DNA of 64,000 bases from SAR324 cluster bacterium (lineage in GTDB: Bacteria; SAR324; XYD2-FULL-50-16; JAERRU01). Positions 15,456-62,335 of the stretch are shown in pieces. The notes beneath the pieces are model-generated. The model worked only from the letters and a program-made list of their open reading frames with translations, did not search any database and was not told where the DNA came from. The position numbers and the translations under genes were made by a program. Position 1 is the first letter of the stretch, and each line of letters begins with the position of its first letter. Location: contig JAERRU010000015.1 of the NCBI GenBank assembly GCA_016735295.1, forward strand, positions 1 to 64,000, written 5' to 3'.

Positions 15456-16346
15456 TTTTAGAAAATATAAATTTAGATGACCCAGCTTGAACATACCAAA
15501 ATTACCAAGCACCGGATATTATGTAAAGCGTTATGTCTGTGTGAAAAATATAAATTTAGATGCCCCAGCTTGAATATACCAAAATTATCAAGCACCGGAT
15601 ATTATGTGAGCCGTTATGGTCTGTGTGAAAAAATTTGAATTTAGATGACCCAGCTTGAATATACCCAAATTACCAAGCACCGGATATTATGTGCGCCGTT
15701 ATGTCTGTGTATAAAATTTGAATTTAGATGACCCAGCTTGAACATACCAAAATTATCAAGCACCGGATATTATGTGAACCGTTATGGTCTGTGTATAAAA
15801 TTTGAATTTAGATGACCCAGCTTGAATATACCAAAATTACCAAATGCCAGATATTATGTGAGGCGTTATGTCTGTGTATAAAATTTGAATTTAGATGACC
15901 CAGCTTGAATATACCAAAATTATCAAGCACCGGATATTATGTGAGGCGTTATGTCTGTGTATAAAATTTGAATTTAGATGACCCAGCTTGAATATACCAA
16001 AATTACCAAATGCCGGATATTATGTGAGGCGTTATGTCTGTGTGAAAAATATAAATTTAGATGACCCAGCCTGAATATACCAAAATTACCAAGCACCGGA
16101 TATTATGTGAGCCGTTATGTCTGTGTGAAAAATATAAATTTAGATGACCCAGCCTGAATATACCAAAATTACCAAGCACCGGATATTATGTGAGGCGTTA
16201 TGTCTGTGTGAAAAATATAAATTTAGATGACCCAGCTTGAATATACCAAAATTACCAAGCACCGGATATTATGTAAAGCGTTATGTCTATGTATAAAATA
16301 TAAATTTAGATGACCCAGCTTGAACATACCAAAATTACCAAATACC
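15456..16346. repeat. Eleven-copy 83-bp tandem repeat array
   Basis: The core gatgacccagcttgaa recurs at 15476, 15559 (variant gatgccc), 15644, 15727, 15811, 15894, 15977, 16060, 16143, 16226 and 16309, with spacings of 83-85 bp. Each unit continues with taccaaaattacc, an accggatattatgtg block and ttatgtctgtgt. Two linker subtypes exist: gaaaaatataaattt at both ends and tataaaatttgaattt in the middle units. The last, partial unit runs into the final codons of the minus-strand SNase-like gene, including its stop (16335-16337). Because 83 is not a multiple of three no long frame is maintained. It is a minisatellite in about 890 bp that otherwise contains no gene. Confidence 0.95.
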
Positions 16347-16982
16347 TGATTTATTTTTTCTAGCGATATCTTCAGCTTTAATAAATTCAGGAATAATATC
16401 TCTTTGTTTTTTGGGGAGAATATAGGGGGATAACCCATTTTTGATTATCCAATAATTCAAAGATTTACTCAAATCTTTCACATCGGCGTTTGGTAAAAAT
16501 AATACTCCGCTTAGTACTCGCCCAGCAGCTTTCATTTCAAAGATAAGGGATAATTCTTTATTTTTAGTTATTTTATTGATGATATGGGCGATTTTAGCAT
16601 TTTTTTGTTTATTTAATTTTTTCGATTTGGTGGCCAAAGGATTAAAAGATATTCCTTCTAGGGAGATGGCTATCCAAGAATTTTTTTCATTTTTAAAATT
16701 AATATCAACATCTTGGCTTAACAGAGTATAAACGTTTCTATCTTCTATCAGCATCCAAATAAGATTACCGGAAAGTTTAATAATTTGGGCATCAATTAAC
16801 TGTTTTTTCCCCGGAAAAGGCCTAACTAGCCCTTTAACGCTTTTGGCATTACGATTAACTTTTGTGTAGCGATAAACTTGAATTTTTTCATCATAATATC
16901 CGCCATATTCATCAAGTTTTTCATCTTCACAGCTAGGCAGTATTAACGCTGAGGCCAAGAGCATAAAGGCAAGTAATTTCAT
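16335..16982 (-). CDS. Lipoprotein with degenerate staphylococcal-nuclease-like fold
   Basis: The signal peptide ends in the lipobox LPSC with Cys18, giving an exported lipoprotein of 215 aa. The region about 50-215 looks like the SNase/thermonuclease beta-barrel. The C-terminal block PEFIKAEDIARKNKSGIW is the characteristic end of that family (E-x2-AR-x-x-K-x-G-I/L-W). The catalytic Arg-Glu-Arg set of active nucleases is not obvious, so a binding rather than cleaving role is possible. The last three codons and stop lie in the 83-bp tandem array, so the C-terminus may have been reshaped by repeat expansion. It is monocistronic as far as can be seen. Confidence 0.65.
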   Translation of the reverse strand: MKLLAFMLLASALILPSCEDEKLDEYGGYYDEKIQVYRYTKVNRNAKSVKGLVRPFPGKKQLIDAQIIKLSGNLIWMLIEDRNVYTLLSQDVDINFKNEKNSWIAISLEGISFNPLATKSKKLNKQKNAKIAHIINKITKNKELSLIFEMKAAGRVLSGVLFLPNADVKDLSKSLNYWIIKNGLSPYILPKKQRDIIPEFIKAEDIARKNKSGIW

Positions 16983-21608: not shown

Positions 21609-22913
21609 ATGCATCACATTGCCACTGCGCTTAATAAACAGCTAGAAGTTGACTATCCTCACATTTGGCGAGTTTTAAGCGATTTAGGAAAAAGAATTTA
21701 TTTCCCTAAAGGAATATTAGCTCAATCGCAAGAAGCTGCTTTGAAAGCTACATTATTTAACGCCACTATTGGTATATCCACTGAACATAAAAAGCCAATG
21801 CATCTACCGCAGGTGCAAGGCATGTTTAATGATTTACCACCTAGCAATATCTATGGCTACGCCCCTGCTGGTGGAAGAAAGAATTTACGTAACCTCTGGT
21901 GGGAAAAAATTAAAAAAACTAGCCCCATGCTTTCTGATGTTCATTGTAGCTTGCCTATTGCTACTTCTGGCATCACCCATGCAATTGCTTTAGCTGCCCA
22001 GATGTTTGTTAAACCTGGTGATAAGGTGGTTATTCCTGAGCAAAATTGGGAAAATTATCACCTCATTTTTGAAGTTGAAAGAGAGGCTACTATTGCTAGC
22101 TATCCTTTATTTAACAAGCGAAATCGATTTAATGTGGAGGGCTTGAAAAGAACCCTATTAGAAGTATTGAAAACTCAAGATCAGGCAGTAGTAGTGCTTA
22201 ATTTCCCTAATAACCCTACTGGATACTCTTTAACTGATAAAGAACAAGATGAAATTGTTCATTTATTAACATCAATCGCTAGTCCTGGTAAATTTTTGAT
22301 GGTTTTGTGCGATGATGCCTATTTTGGTCTATTTTTCGAAAACGATTTAGCTAAACAAAGTTTATTTGCTAAATTAGCCAATGTAAATCAGCATCTATTG
22401 GCGATTAAACTTGATGGGCCAACAAAAGAATTTTTCATGTGGGGCTTTAGATTAGGATTCATCACCTTTGGTTATAATAACGCTCAAAAAGGCCTTTATG
22501 ATATACTTGAACAAAAAATAACTGGTTTAATTAGAGCAAAACTTTCTAATTGTTCGCACCCGGCACAATCTATTTTAGAAAAAATATTAACTGACAGTCT
22601 TCACCAAGAAGAGGCTCATAGGTTATTTTTACTTTTACAAGAGAGGGCGTTAAAGGTAAAAAAATTATTATCGACTGGGCGTTATGCGAAGTATTTTGAT
22701 TTTTATCCTTTCAATGCGGGTTACTTTATGTGTATCATCTTAAAGGATATTCCCGCAGAAAAACTTAGATTAAAATTACTTGATGATTATCAAATAGGCA
22801 CTATTTCATTTGGTAAATATGATCTAAGAATTGCTTTTAGCTCGTTAGATCTAGATGATATAGATGAGCTATTTGAAAAGATTAATTTAGCTTGCGAAGA
22901 GTTGCATTCTTGA
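21609..22913 (+). CDS. PLP-dependent aminotransferase, class I/II
   Basis: Fold-type I aminotransferase of 434 aa. The nucleotide-like PLP pocket is supported by ATSGITHAIALA, the conserved NFPNNPTG (substrate carboxylate/PLP phosphate region), CDDAYFGLFF with the PLP-binding Asp and Tyr, and the Schiff-base lysine in LDGPTKEFFMWGFRLGF. The Arg for the substrate carboxylate is in YDLRIAFSS near the C-terminus. The substrate cannot be assigned. The HASP-type short N-terminal region and the context give no pathway. Its last 54 bp are part of a 208-bp duplication spanning the convergent junction with the next gene. Confidence 0.85.
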   Translation: MHHIATALNKQLEVDYPHIWRVLSDLGKRIYFPKGILAQSQEAALKATLFNATIGISTEHKKPMHLPQVQGMFNDLPPSNIYGYAPAGGRKNLRNLWWEKIKKTSPMLSDVHCSLPIATSGITHAIALAAQMFVKPGDKVVIPEQNWENYHLIFEVEREATIASYPLFNKRNRFNVEGLKRTLLEVLKTQDQAVVVLNFPNNPTGYSLTDKEQDEIVHLLTSIASPGKFLMVLCDDAYFGLFFENDLAKQSLFAKLANVNQHLLAIKLDGPTKEFFMWGFRLGFITFGYNNAQKGLYDILEQKITGLIRAKLSNCSHPAQSILEKILTDSLHQEEAHRLFLLLQERALKVKKLLSTGRYAKYFDFYPFNAGYFMCIILKDIPAEKLRLKLLDDYQIGTISFGKYDLRIAFSSLDLDDIDELFEKINLACEELHS

Positions 22914-23232
22914 TGAGTTTGGTGATTAGTTTGTTTTTATTATTGGGGTTTGTGTAATAAAATAATTCCCAATTGGGCTGGTCATACTTGCTTATCATAT
23001 CCTTACCCAAATATGCTTACCCAAATATCCTTACCCGAATATCATTACCAAGATTTTTTGTGGTGCTATAGATGAGCTATTGGAAAAGATTAATTTAGCT
23101 TGCGAAGAGTTGCATTCTTAATTAGTTTGGCGATTAGTTTGTTTTTATTGTTGGGATTTGTATAATAAAATAATTCCCAATTGGGCTGGTCGTACTTGCT
23201 TATCATATCCTTACCCAAATATCCTTGCCAAA
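22860..23232. repeat. Two-copy 208-bp duplication across a convergent gene junction
   Basis: The sequence starting atagatgagctatt is at 22860 and again at 23068. The copies stay close to identical through taatttagcttgcgaag, the aaataattcccaattgggc block and the cttatcatatccttaccc block. Copy 1 carries the true 3' end of the aminotransferase (stop at 22911-22913). Copy 2 carries the true 3' end of the minus-strand gene (stop at 23090-23092). Each copy therefore contains a spare end of the other gene. Inside copy 1, cttacccaaatat is itself repeated three times. Confidence 0.93.
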
Positions 23233-25042
23233 ATATAATAATTGTTGTTCCAAATTCTTTCAGAATTGGCTGAGCCATTTTTGCCGATTCTAAATTAAGT
23301 TGGCAAATCACCAGATCGGGCTTTATGCCTGCTAACTTGGTTTTGATATTTTGCCAATCTTTGCTAATATTTTTATAATTATATAGATATTGCGAGGAAC
23401 TCACATTAGTTGAATGTTCTTCATGTTTGTTATTTTTCGGATTAGATATTTCGCTAAAGTTGGTGAAAAACTCTGTTTCATATCCTATCTGAAAAATATT
23501 GCCTGAAAATGCTTTTTTAATGGATTTATCTTTATCACTAGCTAACTTTTTATTGATTTTACCAATAAAACTAACCGATTCTTGATCAATGCACTGGGCA
23601 GTAATATTTTTCAAAATTGGCTCCCAAAGATCTATCATCACACGTTGCAGAGCAAATTTTTCCAATTGTAAATATTCGCTACCGGTTATTTCGGTAATGT
23701 TAGCTAAACTACCTTCAGTCACCCCTTTATTTTCGGCATTTAACAGCCAACGGCTAATGCGCTTGGCACAACTTTTACTGGTAATTATAACAGCTTTTTT
23801 ACCAAATTTATGATATTTAGAAAAATCTAGCTTAGCTAAATCATCGATAGTTTTAATACGGTTTAAATCGAGCCATAGCACTCTAGAATTTTTCTTTATA
23901 CCTTGATAAATTTCACTTAGCATATCCTCATCATAAGATAATAATAATATTTGTTGTGAGGAATTTTCATCACCATCTAAGCTAGTAAATTCGGTGGCTT
24001 TTGCTAGGCTATCTCGCAAATTTTTCAGATTTAATTGCCTTTCTGCTATTACATATTTTTCTTGTAACGCTAATTTTTTAATTTTTTGCTTATTTTGTAA
24101 TTCCAACAAATTATTATTAAAAGCAGTCACTAATTCAGCCGGCTCCATGGCACGAAATTTAACTAACATTTTCGCTAAGGATTGATAGTTTTTTTTCTCG
24201 TCTGGCTGCTCATCTTGATTAAAAAGTTGATCGCCCAATTTTATCACGCTATCAAATAAATGATGATAATCCTGATAAGTTTGCTGATTAATAAAATAAG
24301 ATTTAATCGTTCTAATCAGCAAAGGCTGCACCAATGGTTTTGCTAAAATATAAGGCTCAAGCTTAGCTGGTAATGTAGATTTATGCCAATGTTCATTAAG
24401 TAACCCATCGAGCCAGTTAGATGTGGTGACAATTTTCAAGGATGGGGTTAGCCTTTTCACGCGATTTTCAGCCAATTTTTCCTTTTGTTGCTGACAAAAT
24501 ATTTGTCGTTTTTGAGCAAATAAATCTTCAGTTAACTGCTGCCAAGCCTGGGGATTATTTTTAAATTTCCCATCAAACAAGATATGCTCTATTTGACCTT
24601 CTTTAAATTTTAAATTTATCAAATTATCAAAAGAGTGCGATAGCTTATAATCCTGCTTTAAGCTTGCCTTTTCTAAAGATTTAGTTAGTTCGCCCAAATC
24701 AGCTGGTAGCTGCTTTACTTGAGTATTTTTTTCTGATGTAGGATGCAATCTAGCTAACAGGTGCAATATATTAAAATTTTGTTCCCAGCAGATTATGCTA
24801 ATTTGTGGTAGATTACTTAAGTTCAACAAGGCTTTAAATTTCTTTAAGCCTAACTCTGAAAAGCAAGCTAATATCCAACAATGTTTATCGCCTAAATTTC
24901 GACAATAAAAGTCGGGCATTTGCCAGAATCTATCACCTGGTTTTAAAATTTCTATTTTAGATTCTAAAAGCTTGGCCTCATATTTAAATACAGCAGTTAG
25001 ATCATCTATCGTAGAGCTGTTGCTCAAAAGGATTAGTCTCAC
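23090..25042 (-). CDS. Large uncharacterised protein
   Basis: A 650-residue protein that I do not recognise. It has no signal peptide and no clear transmembrane segment. It alternates hydrophobic strands (RLILLSNSS at the start, CWILACFSELG, VLWLDLNRI, AVIITSKSCAK, LVICQLNLE, TTIIIFWQG) with long charged helices between about 160 and 370 (Gln/Lys/Leu-rich). The strand pattern suggests two Rossmann-like alpha/beta parts flanking a helical middle. The start is GTG (25040-25042). It converges with the aminotransferase, and its last eight codons are the antisense of that gene's terminal codons, inherited from the 208-bp duplication. Function unknown. Confidence 0.75.
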   Translation of the reverse strand: MRLILLSNSSTIDDLTAVFKYEAKLLESKIEILKPGDRFWQMPDFYCRNLGDKHCWILACFSELGLKKFKALLNLSNLPQISIICWEQNFNILHLLARLHPTSEKNTQVKQLPADLGELTKSLEKASLKQDYKLSHSFDNLINLKFKEGQIEHILFDGKFKNNPQAWQQLTEDLFAQKRQIFCQQQKEKLAENRVKRLTPSLKIVTTSNWLDGLLNEHWHKSTLPAKLEPYILAKPLVQPLLIRTIKSYFINQQTYQDYHHLFDSVIKLGDQLFNQDEQPDEKKNYQSLAKMLVKFRAMEPAELVTAFNNNLLELQNKQKIKKLALQEKYVIAERQLNLKNLRDSLAKATEFTSLDGDENSSQQILLLSYDEDMLSEIYQGIKKNSRVLWLDLNRIKTIDDLAKLDFSKYHKFGKKAVIITSKSCAKRISRWLLNAENKGVTEGSLANITEITGSEYLQLEKFALQRVMIDLWEPILKNITAQCIDQESVSFIGKINKKLASDKDKSIKKAFSGNIFQIGYETEFFTNFSEISNPKNNKHEEHSTNVSSSQYLYNYKNISKDWQNIKTKLAGIKPDLVICQLNLESAKMAQPILKEFGTTIIIFWQGYLGKDMISKYDQPNWELFYYTNPNNKNKLIAKLIKNATLRKLN

Positions 25043-36673: not shown

Positions 36674-37615
36674 ATGAATATTGCTATTATTTTACCCGCT
36701 TTCAATGAAGAACATACTATCGCCAAAGTTATTACCAGCTTTCATAAAGAGCTCCCAAAAGCTAAAATTGTGGTAGTTAATAATGCTTCTACCGATAACA
36801 CCTTTAACGAAGCGACCAAAACTTTTGCCAAGCTTGATATTGGGGGCACTATCATCAATGAGGCCAGGCAAGGCAAGGGATTTGCCGTGCGAGCTGCCTT
36901 TACACAAATAGATGCTGATTATTATGTGCTTTGCGATGCTGATGACACTTACCCAGCTAACTCGGTTAAAGATTTATTAAACTTAGCCTATGAAGGAGCT
37001 GATTTAGTGGTGGGCAACCGCCTTAGCTCTGGATCATATAAAAAGCAAAATAACCGCCGCTACCACACTTTTGGTAATAGATTGATTAATTTTATCGTTA
37101 ATTGTCTTTTTTCAAATATTGATAAAATTAAAGATGTGATGAGTGGATACCGAGTTTTTAGCCGTAAATTTGTTAAAAATTATCCTATTTTGGTGCCCGG
37201 ATTTCAATTAGAAACTGATATGACCTTGCACGCCCTTGATAAAAGGTTTGTCGTGCGAGAAATGGAGGTTACTTACCAAAATCGTCCTAAAGAAAGCTTT
37301 TCAAAGCTTAATACTATATCTGACGGGCTTAAAGTACTTTTTTGTATTGCCAGGGTATTTCGCTATTACCGACCCTTATTCTTTTTTAGTATACTATCTC
37401 TCATATTTTTAATAACTGGTTTTTTATCGGCTATCCCAGTTTTACGAGATTGGATATTATATAGTTATATATATCACGTCCCTTTAGCTATTTTAGCTAG
37501 TTCTTTGGAATTGGTGGCTATACTAACTTTATTAGCAGGATTTATTTTGGATTCTTTGAGCCATCAAAATAAATTTATGTATGAGCATACTTTGCTTAAC
37601 CTCAAAAAAGATTAA
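36674..37615 (+). CDS. Glycosyltransferase family 2, polyprenyl-phosphate sugar synthase type
   Basis: GT-A glycosyltransferase of 313 aa resembling dolichyl/undecaprenyl-phosphate mannose or glucose synthases. It starts IILPAFNEEHTI. The nucleotide-sugar site is VNNASTDNT, and CDADDTYP supplies the acidic metal ligands. Two or three C-terminal hydrophobic helices (about 235-300) anchor it in the inner membrane. The ATG at 36674 begins directly at the family N-terminus. The upstream TTG at 36653 is less likely. With the next gene, a GT39-type membrane transferase, it would form a two-step system: sugar to lipid carrier, then to an acceptor. Its 3' end is copied twice more downstream. Confidence 0.85.
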   Translation: MNIAIILPAFNEEHTIAKVITSFHKELPKAKIVVVNNASTDNTFNEATKTFAKLDIGGTIINEARQGKGFAVRAAFTQIDADYYVLCDADDTYPANSVKDLLNLAYEGADLVVGNRLSSGSYKKQNNRRYHTFGNRLINFIVNCLFSNIDKIKDVMSGYRVFSRKFVKNYPILVPGFQLETDMTLHALDKRFVVREMEVTYQNRPKESFSKLNTISDGLKVLFCIARVFRYYRPLFFFSILSLIFLITGFLSAIPVLRDWILYSYIYHVPLAILASSLELVAILTLLAGFILDSLSHQNKFMYEHTLLNLKKD

Positions 37616-37802
37616 TATTTTTAATAATTATCCATAAGTTAAAATAGATTCATGTGCGAGCATGCTTTGCTTAATCGCAAAAAAGATTAATATGTTTAAT
37701 AATCTATCCATACGTTAAAATAGATTCATGTGCGAGCATACTGTGCTTAATTACAAAAAAGATTAATATGTTTAATAATTTATCTATACGTTGAAAATTT
37801 AA
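37579..37802. repeat. Three-copy 75-76-bp tandem repeat of the glycosyltransferase 3' end
   Basis: The motif gagcat with cttaa and caaaaaagattaatat occurs at 37583, 37658 and 37734. The first copy includes the last eleven codons and stop of the glycosyltransferase gene (stop 37613-37615). Copies two and three lie in the 197-bp spacer before the next gene and keep a recognisable degraded version of the coding end. Confidence 0.92.
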
Positions 37803-46686: not shown

Positions 46687-48264
46687 GTGAAACAAGCATA
46701 TAAAATAAAGCGTGCCTTGGTTAGTGTAACAGATAAAACCAATTTAGCTGAATTTGCTAAAGGATTAAGTGAGCTAGGTTGCCAACTCATAGCTACTGAC
46801 GGCACTAATGCCCATCTTAAAAAATATGACATTAAAACTATTGATTTAGCCGATTTTAGTGATAGCCCAGCCTTATTTTCAGGACGCATAAAAAGTCTTA
46901 CCTTTAAAGTACAAAGTGCCATACTTTATGACCGCTTTAATCCCCAACATCAACAAGAAGCGAAAGAACATCAAATATCTACTATTGATTGCGTGATTTG
47001 CAATTTTTATGATTTTCAAAAGGCTCTTAATCAGCAAAAACAAGCTAATGCAGATGATAATTTAGCTTCCATTATTGAACACATAGATATAGGTGGTCCT
47101 AATATGGTTAGGGCTGCGGCGAAGAATTTTAAATCGGTTTTAGTTATTACTGATCCTGATGATTATCAAATAATACTAAAAGAGCTAACCGAAAATGAGG
47201 GAGCGATTAGCTATAATACTCGTTTATTGATGATGAAAAAGGCTTTTAGATTGATTTATCAATATGATCAATTAATCTTTGAGGGTTTAACTAGAAAAGA
47301 GATTAAATATGGAGAAAATTCCCATCAACAGGCTTATTACGTGCCTTTTGCTGATGATTATTTGGAAAATTTGAGCCAAAATCAAATATCATATAATAAT
47401 TATCTAGACGTAAATGCAGCCCTTGAATTGCTATATGACATTGATTTATCGCTAGGCAAAGGTGGGCTAGGTAATGCAGATAAAATGATCATCAATCAAT
47501 GTGCGGTGGTGATAAAGCATAATAACCCTTGTGGGTTAGCTAGTGCTAAAGATTTGGCTCAAGCCTTGAAATTAGCCTTGGATGGGGATAAAATGTCTGC
47601 TTTTGGCTCAGTGGTAGGAGTATCAGGAGTGGTTGATATGGAGATAGTAAACTCTTTAAAAGGCATTTTTATTGAGGTAATAGTAGCGTTTGATTATGAG
47701 AAAGAAGCTTTAACAATGTTAAAAAAACTAAAACGAAAATTAAAAATAATTAAAGTTACTCCTCCATCAAAAAGCTCAAATAATCCTTGGCAAAGAAGAT
47801 CTATTGAAAATGCTACCCTCCTACAATCAAAAGATGTAGGCACATATAAAGATTATCAGGCGGTCACTAAGAAAAAATTTACCAACGACTTATTAGGTTT
47901 AGCAAAATTTGCCATGCTCGCCGTTAAATCCTTAAAATCAAACGCAGTAGCTATTGCCCGCTATCATCAAGGGGCTTATCAATTAATTTCTACTGGCTCT
48001 GGGCAAACTAATCGCTTAGATGCAGTTAGGCTTTTGGCTATTCCTCGGGCTTTGGATAACTTTAAACAACTTGATTGGGATAAATGTGTTTTGGCGAGTG
48101 ACGCTTTTTTTCCTTTTGCCGATTCAATTGAGAGCTTAGCTCAACATAAATTAAAGCATATAGTTCAACCAGGGGGGAGCATTAGGGATAAAGAGGTGAT
48201 TAACGCTTGCGATGAGCATGATATAGCGATGATTTTAACTAATCGTCGCCATTTTAAGCACTAG
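46687..48264 (+). CDS. purH: Bifunctional AICAR formyltransferase / IMP cyclohydrolase
   Basis: Performs the last two steps of IMP synthesis. The cyclohydrolase half is at the N-terminus (IKRALVSVTDKT, DGTNAHLKKYDI). The transformylase half contains KHNNPCGLA (catalytic Lys-His region) and the typical FPFADSIE and QPGGSIRDKEVI near the end. Start is GTG 46687, giving the standard N-terminus. No ribosome site is visible. Length 525 aa matches the family. It lies downstream of alr on the same strand behind the ATA repeat. Confidence 0.96.
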   Translation: MKQAYKIKRALVSVTDKTNLAEFAKGLSELGCQLIATDGTNAHLKKYDIKTIDLADFSDSPALFSGRIKSLTFKVQSAILYDRFNPQHQQEAKEHQISTIDCVICNFYDFQKALNQQKQANADDNLASIIEHIDIGGPNMVRAAAKNFKSVLVITDPDDYQIILKELTENEGAISYNTRLLMMKKAFRLIYQYDQLIFEGLTRKEIKYGENSHQQAYYVPFADDYLENLSQNQISYNNYLDVNAALELLYDIDLSLGKGGLGNADKMIINQCAVVIKHNNPCGLASAKDLAQALKLALDGDKMSAFGSVVGVSGVVDMEIVNSLKGIFIEVIVAFDYEKEALTMLKKLKRKLKIIKVTPPSKSSNNPWQRRSIENATLLQSKDVGTYKDYQAVTKKKFTNDLLGLAKFAMLAVKSLKSNAVAIARYHQGAYQLISTGSGQTNRLDAVRLLAIPRALDNFKQLDWDKCVLASDAFFPFADSIESLAQHKLKHIVQPGGSIRDKEVINACDEHDIAMILTNRRHFKH

Positions 48265-48535
48265 TGGATACTTGATATTAACGTCAACCTTCACAATTTA
48301 TATTTTATATGTTGGCTTAGTTATTTGGTTTTCACTTGCTTTGGTGGGCAAGATGTTTTATAGCTAAGTAGCTGTGTTTCTGCTCGCGCAAACCAAGCAC
48401 CCTATTAGATTTATGGCGGGCGTGGCTACTTGATATTAACGTCAACCTTCACAATTTATATTTTATATGTTGGCTTAGTTATTTGGTTTTCACTTGCTTT
48501 GGTGGGTAAGATGTTTCATGACTAGGCGGTTGTGT
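48265..48535. repeat. Two-copy 158-bp direct duplication after purH
   Basis: cttgatattaacgtcaacc begins at 48271 and again at 48429. The copies are identical or nearly so for about 105 bp and then diverge. The first copy starts within 7 bp of the purH stop. They fill most of the 500-bp gap between purH and the HU/IHF gene. No ORF was found. Confidence 0.93.
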
Positions 48536-48728
48536 TGATATTCATATAAACCAGTTACTATATTAGTTTTATAGTAAATATTAATTTTATCTATCATAAA
48601 ATTTATGAATTTGCTTCCCAAAATATAGTATATTTAGTAACTTAAGACTCAATGCGCCACTTTTATCTGTTAAATAATATGAACAAATATCATATAAGTA
48701 TCGTTAATTTTTATTATCGCACTTTGTT

Positions 48729-61071: not shown

Positions 61072-61618
61072 GTCGCCAGATTTTATTATATGAATTAAGA
61101 GCGGCTATCACCTAATCCATCATAAAAGCAGTGGCTTATTGGTGATATGATTATCTGAACCATCATAAAATAGTTGCCATTAATGATGTAATTATCTCCA
61201 TATTTTATCGTACAAATTTAGACTCGCCATCACCTAATCCATCATAAAAAGCGGTGGCTTATTGGTGATTTGATTATCTGAACCATCATAAAACGCTTGC
61301 CATTAACGATGTAATCATCGCCATATTTTATTATATGAATTAAGACCGGCTATCACCTAATTCATCATAAAAAATGGTGGCTTATTGGTGATTTAATTAT
61401 CTGAACCATCATAAAACGCTTGCCATTAACTATGTAAATTTAGACTCGCCATCACCTAATCCATCATAAAAAATGGTGGCTTATTGGTGATATGATTATC
61501 TGAACCATCATAAAACGCTTGCCATTAACGATGTAATCATCGCCAGATTTTATTATATGAATTAAGCCCGGCTATCACTTAATTCATCATAAAAGCAGTG
61601 GCTATTGGTGATGTAATA
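61072..61618. repeat. Five-copy 122-bp hairpin-forming tandem repeat array
   Basis: The motif atcacctaat (or ttaat) with ccatcataaaa occurs at 61107, 61229, 61352, 61451 and 61574. Spacings are 122, 123, 99 (24 bp deleted) and 123. Each unit contains an inverted pair, atcacc-aat and attggtgat, around gtggctt, so a single strand would form hairpins. It fills nearly all of the 590-bp spacer between the convergent Fe-S fusion gene and bolA. Unit edges vary between tatgaattaag and caaatttagac. No ORF was found. Confidence 0.93.
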
Positions 61619-62046: not shown

Positions 62047-62080
62047 TGGCACAAATCAAAATTTTATTCCATCAGCCAAA

Positions 62081-62335
62081 AATTACCACTGCCAATCTTT
62101 TAACATCTGACAAAGCAACCTAACATCAACTCCTGTCGCTACTTTGCTTTGATTCCATCAACCAAAATTACCACTGCCAATCTTTTAACATCTGACAAAG
62201 TAACCTACCATCAACTCCTGTCGCTACTTTGCTTTGATTCCATCAACCAAAATTACCACTGCCAATCTTTTAACATCTGACAAAGCAACCTGACTCCAAC
62301 TCCTGTCGCTCCTTTACTCGGATAAAAATCAACGT
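62081..62335. repeat. Three-copy 85-bp tandem repeat of the pepA 3' end
   Basis: aattaccactgccaatcttt occurs at 62081, 62166 and 62251. The third copy is the functional 3' end of pepA (stop 62253-62255) and runs about 80 bp into its coding sequence. The other two copies are downstream spares that still encode the pepA C-terminal peptide QMLKDWQW and a stop, with a few changes (for example GVDVRLL in place of GVGVRLL). Confidence 0.95.

Follow-up and report, generated by a model that had tools for sequence, protein, structure and literature searches.

The window analysed here, a stretch of 64,000 nucleotides at positions 1 to 64,000 of contig JAERRU010000015.1 (SAR324 cluster bacterium, assembly GCA_016735295.1), carries two convergent genes whose tail-to-tail junction is present twice. 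The first, on the plus strand (21609..22913), encodes a PLP-dependent aminotransferase of 434 aa belonging to the NF006388/PRK08637 family (NCBIfam, E = 3.6e-165), and ends on a TGA at 22911-22913. The second is an orphan ORF of 650 aa on the minus strand (23090..25042), with a GTG start and a TAA stop at 23090-23092. At present 176 bp separate the stop codons of the two genes, and terminator-like hairpins, sought between the aminotransferase and the minus-strand gene, were not found.

In an alignment of the aminotransferase with six relatives from its own order (43-46% identity), all proteins end within a few residues of one place, indicating that the end lying in the first copy of the junction is native and was not made by the duplication. 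In these relatives the downstream neighbour is also convergent. Judged by sequence motifs alone, this neighbour is an anhydro-N-acetylmuramic acid kinase-like gene in most of the relatives read, at a distance of 5-18 bp in the most closely packed of them, and a dehydrogenase-like gene in one, where it overlaps the aminotransferase by 4 bp. A convergent neighbour at close range is thus the normal state of this aminotransferase, although the partner differs. A scan of the contigs of the genome collection with the single aminotransferase sequence gave no match, and an alignment-based scan recovered relatives of at most 48% identity, apparently from other lineages.

The minus-strand protein matched no family, its searches against Pfam and PDB sequences returned chance-level matches only, and no relative was detected in 97 related genomes, including 51 others of the phylum; among the genomes searched, the sole match was its own. 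Its native end can therefore not be read by comparison. The ORF has a coding score of 0.175 per codon, against 0.215 in typical genes. Its structure, predicted without an alignment, had a mean pLDDT of 36 and was not used. Two C-terminal sequences, ...WQGYDKQVRPAQLGIILLYKSQQ and ...WQGYLGKDMISKYDQPNW..., are candidates for the native end of the 650-aa protein.

The duplicated junction

The junction forms a direct repeat of 173 nt (22856-23028 versus 23064-23236), 93% identical and with a start-to-start distance of 208; Tandem Repeats Finder delimits it as 22859-23236, with a period of 208, 1.8 copies and a score of 679. The match far exceeds chance, and the junction occurs once in the genome. 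A preliminary description had reported a duplication of 208 bp: its place and its 208-bp register are right, but the alignable unit is only about 170 bp, and some 38 bp of the spacing have no ungapped alignment. Copy 1 (22859..23028) contains the active end of the aminotransferase and a spare end of the minus-strand gene, while copy 2 (23067..23236) contains a spare end of the aminotransferase and the active end of the minus-strand gene. The sequence between the copies (23029..23066) consists of two extra 14-bp units of copy 1 and a short, unmatched filler (23050-23063).

Each copy also holds the stop codon of the other gene: a TAA of the minus-strand gene at 22882-22884 in copy 1, and a TAA in the aminotransferase frame (plus strand) at 23119-23121 in copy 2. 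As the preliminary description had stated, copy 1 ends the aminotransferase and copy 2 the 650-aa protein, a spare end of each gene is left over, and the codons for the C-terminal ATLRKLN of the latter are antisense to those for the INLACEELHS of the former. The two copies are adjacent, lie in direct orientation and share the flanking gene ends; the convergent junction has been tandemly duplicated across the 3' ends of both genes. The spare copy also contains an open frame of 38 aa on the minus strand (22882-22998), with an ATG at 22996-22998 and an AAGG just upstream (MISKYDQPNWELFYYTNPNNKNKLITKLIKNATLRKLN).

Since both stop codons are kept in both copies, collapsing the copies into one with the present frames gives a convergent overlap of 32 bp (22882-22913), one edge of which is marked by the spare minus-strand stop. 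The same description concluded that the two genes must have overlapped before the duplication. The collapse does yield that overlap, but it does not establish the original state, because a 14-bp repeat within the junction shifts the frame of the minus-strand gene.

A 14-bp array and the frame of the minus-strand gene

This 14-bp tandem array, absent from the preliminary description, has the unit ATATCCTTACCCAA (plus strand) and is present as 3.8 units in copy 1 (22997..23049) and as 2.3 units in copy 2 (23205..23236), where it lies inside the coding end of the minus-strand gene. Adjacent 14-mers equally alike were found in only five cases among 454,321 gene positions of the genome, a rarity that marks the array as a real product of slippage. 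Variable-number tandem repeats can alter the reading frame of a protein, and here likewise, as known from one genome, the number of short units sets the C-terminal frame of the minus-strand gene: 14 is not divisible by three, so that each extra unit shifts the frame by 14 mod 3 = 2 and changes everything read downstream. With one unit, the gene would read ...IIIFWQGYDKQVRPAQLGIILLYKSQQ and stop at 23145-23147 on the minus strand (22937-22939 in copy 1), leaving 23 bp between its stop and that of the aminotransferase, and no overlap. With two units it has its present tail, ...WQGYLGKDMISKYDQPNWELFYYTNPNNKNKLIAKLIKNATLRKLN, the last part of which is antisense to the aminotransferase end over 32 bp. 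Both copies have an A at position 12 of their outer 14-bp units; this single shared base, on which the order of the two duplications depends, gives weak support to a state with two units before the large duplication.

Codon statistics were compared for the two frames. The present 48-codon tail of the minus-strand gene has a codon score of 0.042 per codon, whereas real C-termini average 0.219 and only 2.5% of them lie at or below that value. Over the same stretch the frame that preceded the slippage scores 0.167, which is reached by 1.9% of wrong-frame windows, and the preference between the two frames flips at the 14-bp array. At third codon positions, the GC content of the genome as a whole is 0.29; the present tail, with 0.42-0.48, lies above it, and the alternative frame, with 0.24, below. 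Periodic Markov models of order 0-5, run on the 57 nt from the array to the alternative stop, favoured the alternative frame 1.5- to 13-fold, although orders 4-5 nearly tie and the frame statistics cover about 21 codons. In addition, we observed overlaps in only four of 59 convergent gene pairs in 596 kb of the genome, three measuring 4 bp and the fourth, which involves an ORF made by an array, 17 bp; on this scale an overlap of 32 bp would be the largest and is out of line, and a gap of 23 bp is typical.

The differences between the two copies give an opposite indication. Outside the 14-bp array, six out of seven are silent, falling at third positions of the present minus-strand frame, a pattern with p = 0.003-0.006 if nothing is constrained and about 0.03 if copy 2 alone is. 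This argues against a very recent frame shift. The present tail seems, from the sequence, to have been under selection as a protein for some time, and copy 1 does not seem to have been drifting freely.

These observations bear on whether the 32-bp overlap was a long-standing tail-to-tail arrangement that the duplication later resolved. The presence of both stops in both copies would fit such a history, as would the silent changes, which point to constraint on the present minus-strand frame. Against it, the 14-bp tandem repeat within the gene implies that the sequence downstream was once read in another frame, the codon usage of the tail does not look long established, and an overlap of such size is otherwise absent from the 59 convergent pairs. 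The array and the codon statistics thus speak for an overlap made by a frameshift, the silent-change pattern for an ancestral one. We regard a long-standing overlap as unlikely, while giving it more weight than any of the other alternatives considered below; that the genes overlapped before the duplication is likely, but in a state that was probably derived, not original.

Tandem arrays at gene ends across the genome

The junction is one of many such structures in this genome. In a sample of stretches amounting to 596 kb of the 1.52 Mb, we found 28 tandem arrays with a period of at least 40. Twelve of them lie across the 3' end of a gene and three across a 5' end (two-sided binomial test, about 0.035). 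Five others are inside genes (L035 1010-1173; L043 10738-10977; L050 16611-16945; L054 16235-16623; L055 13911-14067), with periods of 51, 60, 72, 78 and 123, all divisible by three, and the remainder are intergenic. A common repeat family behind the arrays of about 80 bp was considered and rejected: leaving aside one array that seems to be split between two contigs and one 16-bp match, no two units are related, and each array therefore arose locally. A general bias towards silent change in spare copies was also tested at other arrays and was not seen.

Within the window itself, an 83-bp unit is repeated 10.6 times at 15462-16341, starting at the 3' end of a minus-strand gene (16335-16982), and four further arrays overlap or abut gene 3' ends (37566-37798, 48264-48572, 61073-61536 and 62062-62315), with mutually unrelated units. 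Elsewhere, a 105-bp array found at two contig ends (L037 1-294 and L048 4559-4759) looks like one array split between them. Because the assembly breaks at arrays, their count is too low.

Two of the arrays are themselves expanded convergent junctions, one next to a queuine tRNA-ribosyltransferase gene (L036 5914-6311, 81 bp x 4.9) and the other beside a helicase-like gene (L041 8359-8610, 83 bp x 3). When collapsed, they leave gaps of a few bp and of 13 bp, without overlap. The preliminary description had presented the aminotransferase locus as a clean example of duplication resolving an overlap, and such a purpose is not supported: similar arrays are found at gene ends throughout the genome, and these two convergent pairs show no overlap when collapsed. 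A neutral process suffices, because similar arrays lie at many gene 3' ends. A gene stays intact when its 3' end is duplicated, so such a duplication survives, and a selective benefit need not be assumed. We accordingly view the locus as the neutral outcome of a duplication-prone genome, in which the separation of the two genes was a by-product.

A possible order of events and its significance

The history that we favour, giving it about an even chance of being correct, is one of nested tandem duplications, in which a frameshifting duplication of 14 bp created the overlap and one of about 170 bp then separated the genes. The minus-strand gene would originally have stopped about 23 bp before reaching the aminotransferase. 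Duplication of the 14-bp unit would have shifted its frame, so that translation passed the old stop and went on through sequence antisense to the final ten aminotransferase codons, giving the 32-bp tail-to-tail overlap. Subsequently, a segment of about 170-195 bp that included the ends of both genes would have been tandemly duplicated, by slippage or unequal exchange; the duplicated sequence is there to be read, while its place as the second step is our reconstruction. This would have left the aminotransferase ending in the first copy and the minus-strand gene in the last, both intact, with the spare ends between them. Further multiplication of the 14-bp units, directly visible in the spare part of copy 1, would have completed the sequence of events with no protein affected.

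Under these nested duplications the overlap is a derived intermediate; it would never have existed at all if the 14-bp slippage came last. In that case, the large duplication would have struck a non-overlapping pair, and the slippage would have followed in copy 2. The frame logic of the 14-bp unit fits this order too, and the two other expanded convergent pairs, which collapse to a few bp and to 13 bp of gap without overlap, speak for it. However, at least two 14-bp units are found in both copies, their outer units have a base in common, and the stop of the present minus-strand frame is kept in copy 1, all of which make this order improbable, somewhat more so than a long-standing overlap.

Alternatively, the two copies could have been brought together by unequal homologous exchange between two diverged strains, the aminotransferase end coming from one strain and the minus-strand gene end from the other, so that the copy differences would be older than the duplication. 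Such an exchange would account for the almost exclusively silent differences in the spare copy, but spare copies at other arrays of the genome carry many non-silent differences, which weakens a strain origin as the explanation here, as does the fact that the informative differences number only seven. We consider it a long shot, less likely than a late slippage. More doubtful still, and in our view very improbable, is that the 14-bp array works as a switch that decides how the minus-strand protein ends, one unit giving the short tail and a gap, two the present longer tail, and three an immediate stop, with the spare copy serving as a reservoir of units and perhaps also carrying a selected 38-aa frame. 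Finally, a single junction assembled twice is hardly credible: the assembly is a draft of 42 contigs that often end in tandem arrays, but the copies are distinguished by about 7% of their sites, by the number of 14-bp units and by changes silent in the minus-strand frame.

Returning to the nested duplications, the locus joins two known phenomena, namely spacer expansion by tandem repeats and convergent overlap made by a frameshift. As to the first, Ehrlichia ruminantium has long non-coding tandem repeats that expand and contract, as described in PMC10710844 on the basis of Collins et al. 2005 and Frutos et al. 2006. The resemblance lies in a small AT-rich genome with many locally derived non-coding tandem arrays that lengthen spacers, and such arrays are indeed numerous here (28 in 596 kb, from one genome in its family). 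The two differ in coding density, about 86% by ORFs here against about 64% reported for E. ruminantium, in the periods, which are often 76-85 bp here, and in the organism, which belongs to another, small phylum.

As to the second, convergent overlaps arising through a 3'-end frameshift or the loss of a stop have been described, many of the long annotated ones being of that type (Palleja et al. 2008, PMC2478687); overlaps by 3'-end extension are also attributed there, by citation, to Fukuda et al. (1999, 2003). As in those overlaps, a frameshift at the 3' end would have extended one gene into its convergent neighbour. In contrast to them, the shift would here stem from the tandem duplication of 14 bp, and another, larger duplication would then have drawn the genes apart. 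Among the papers searched, none describes overlapping or convergent genes being separated by a tandem duplication, which is not proof that no such case exists.

The locus offers a small and clear record of how tandem duplication can spread tightly packed genes apart with harm to neither. It also carries a caution, that an ancestral overlap need not follow from the collapse of such a junction where a short repeat has shifted the frame of one of the genes. The mechanism is an ordinary one and, taken as a class, arrays at gene 3' ends could allow the growth of spacers to be watched in reduced genomes.
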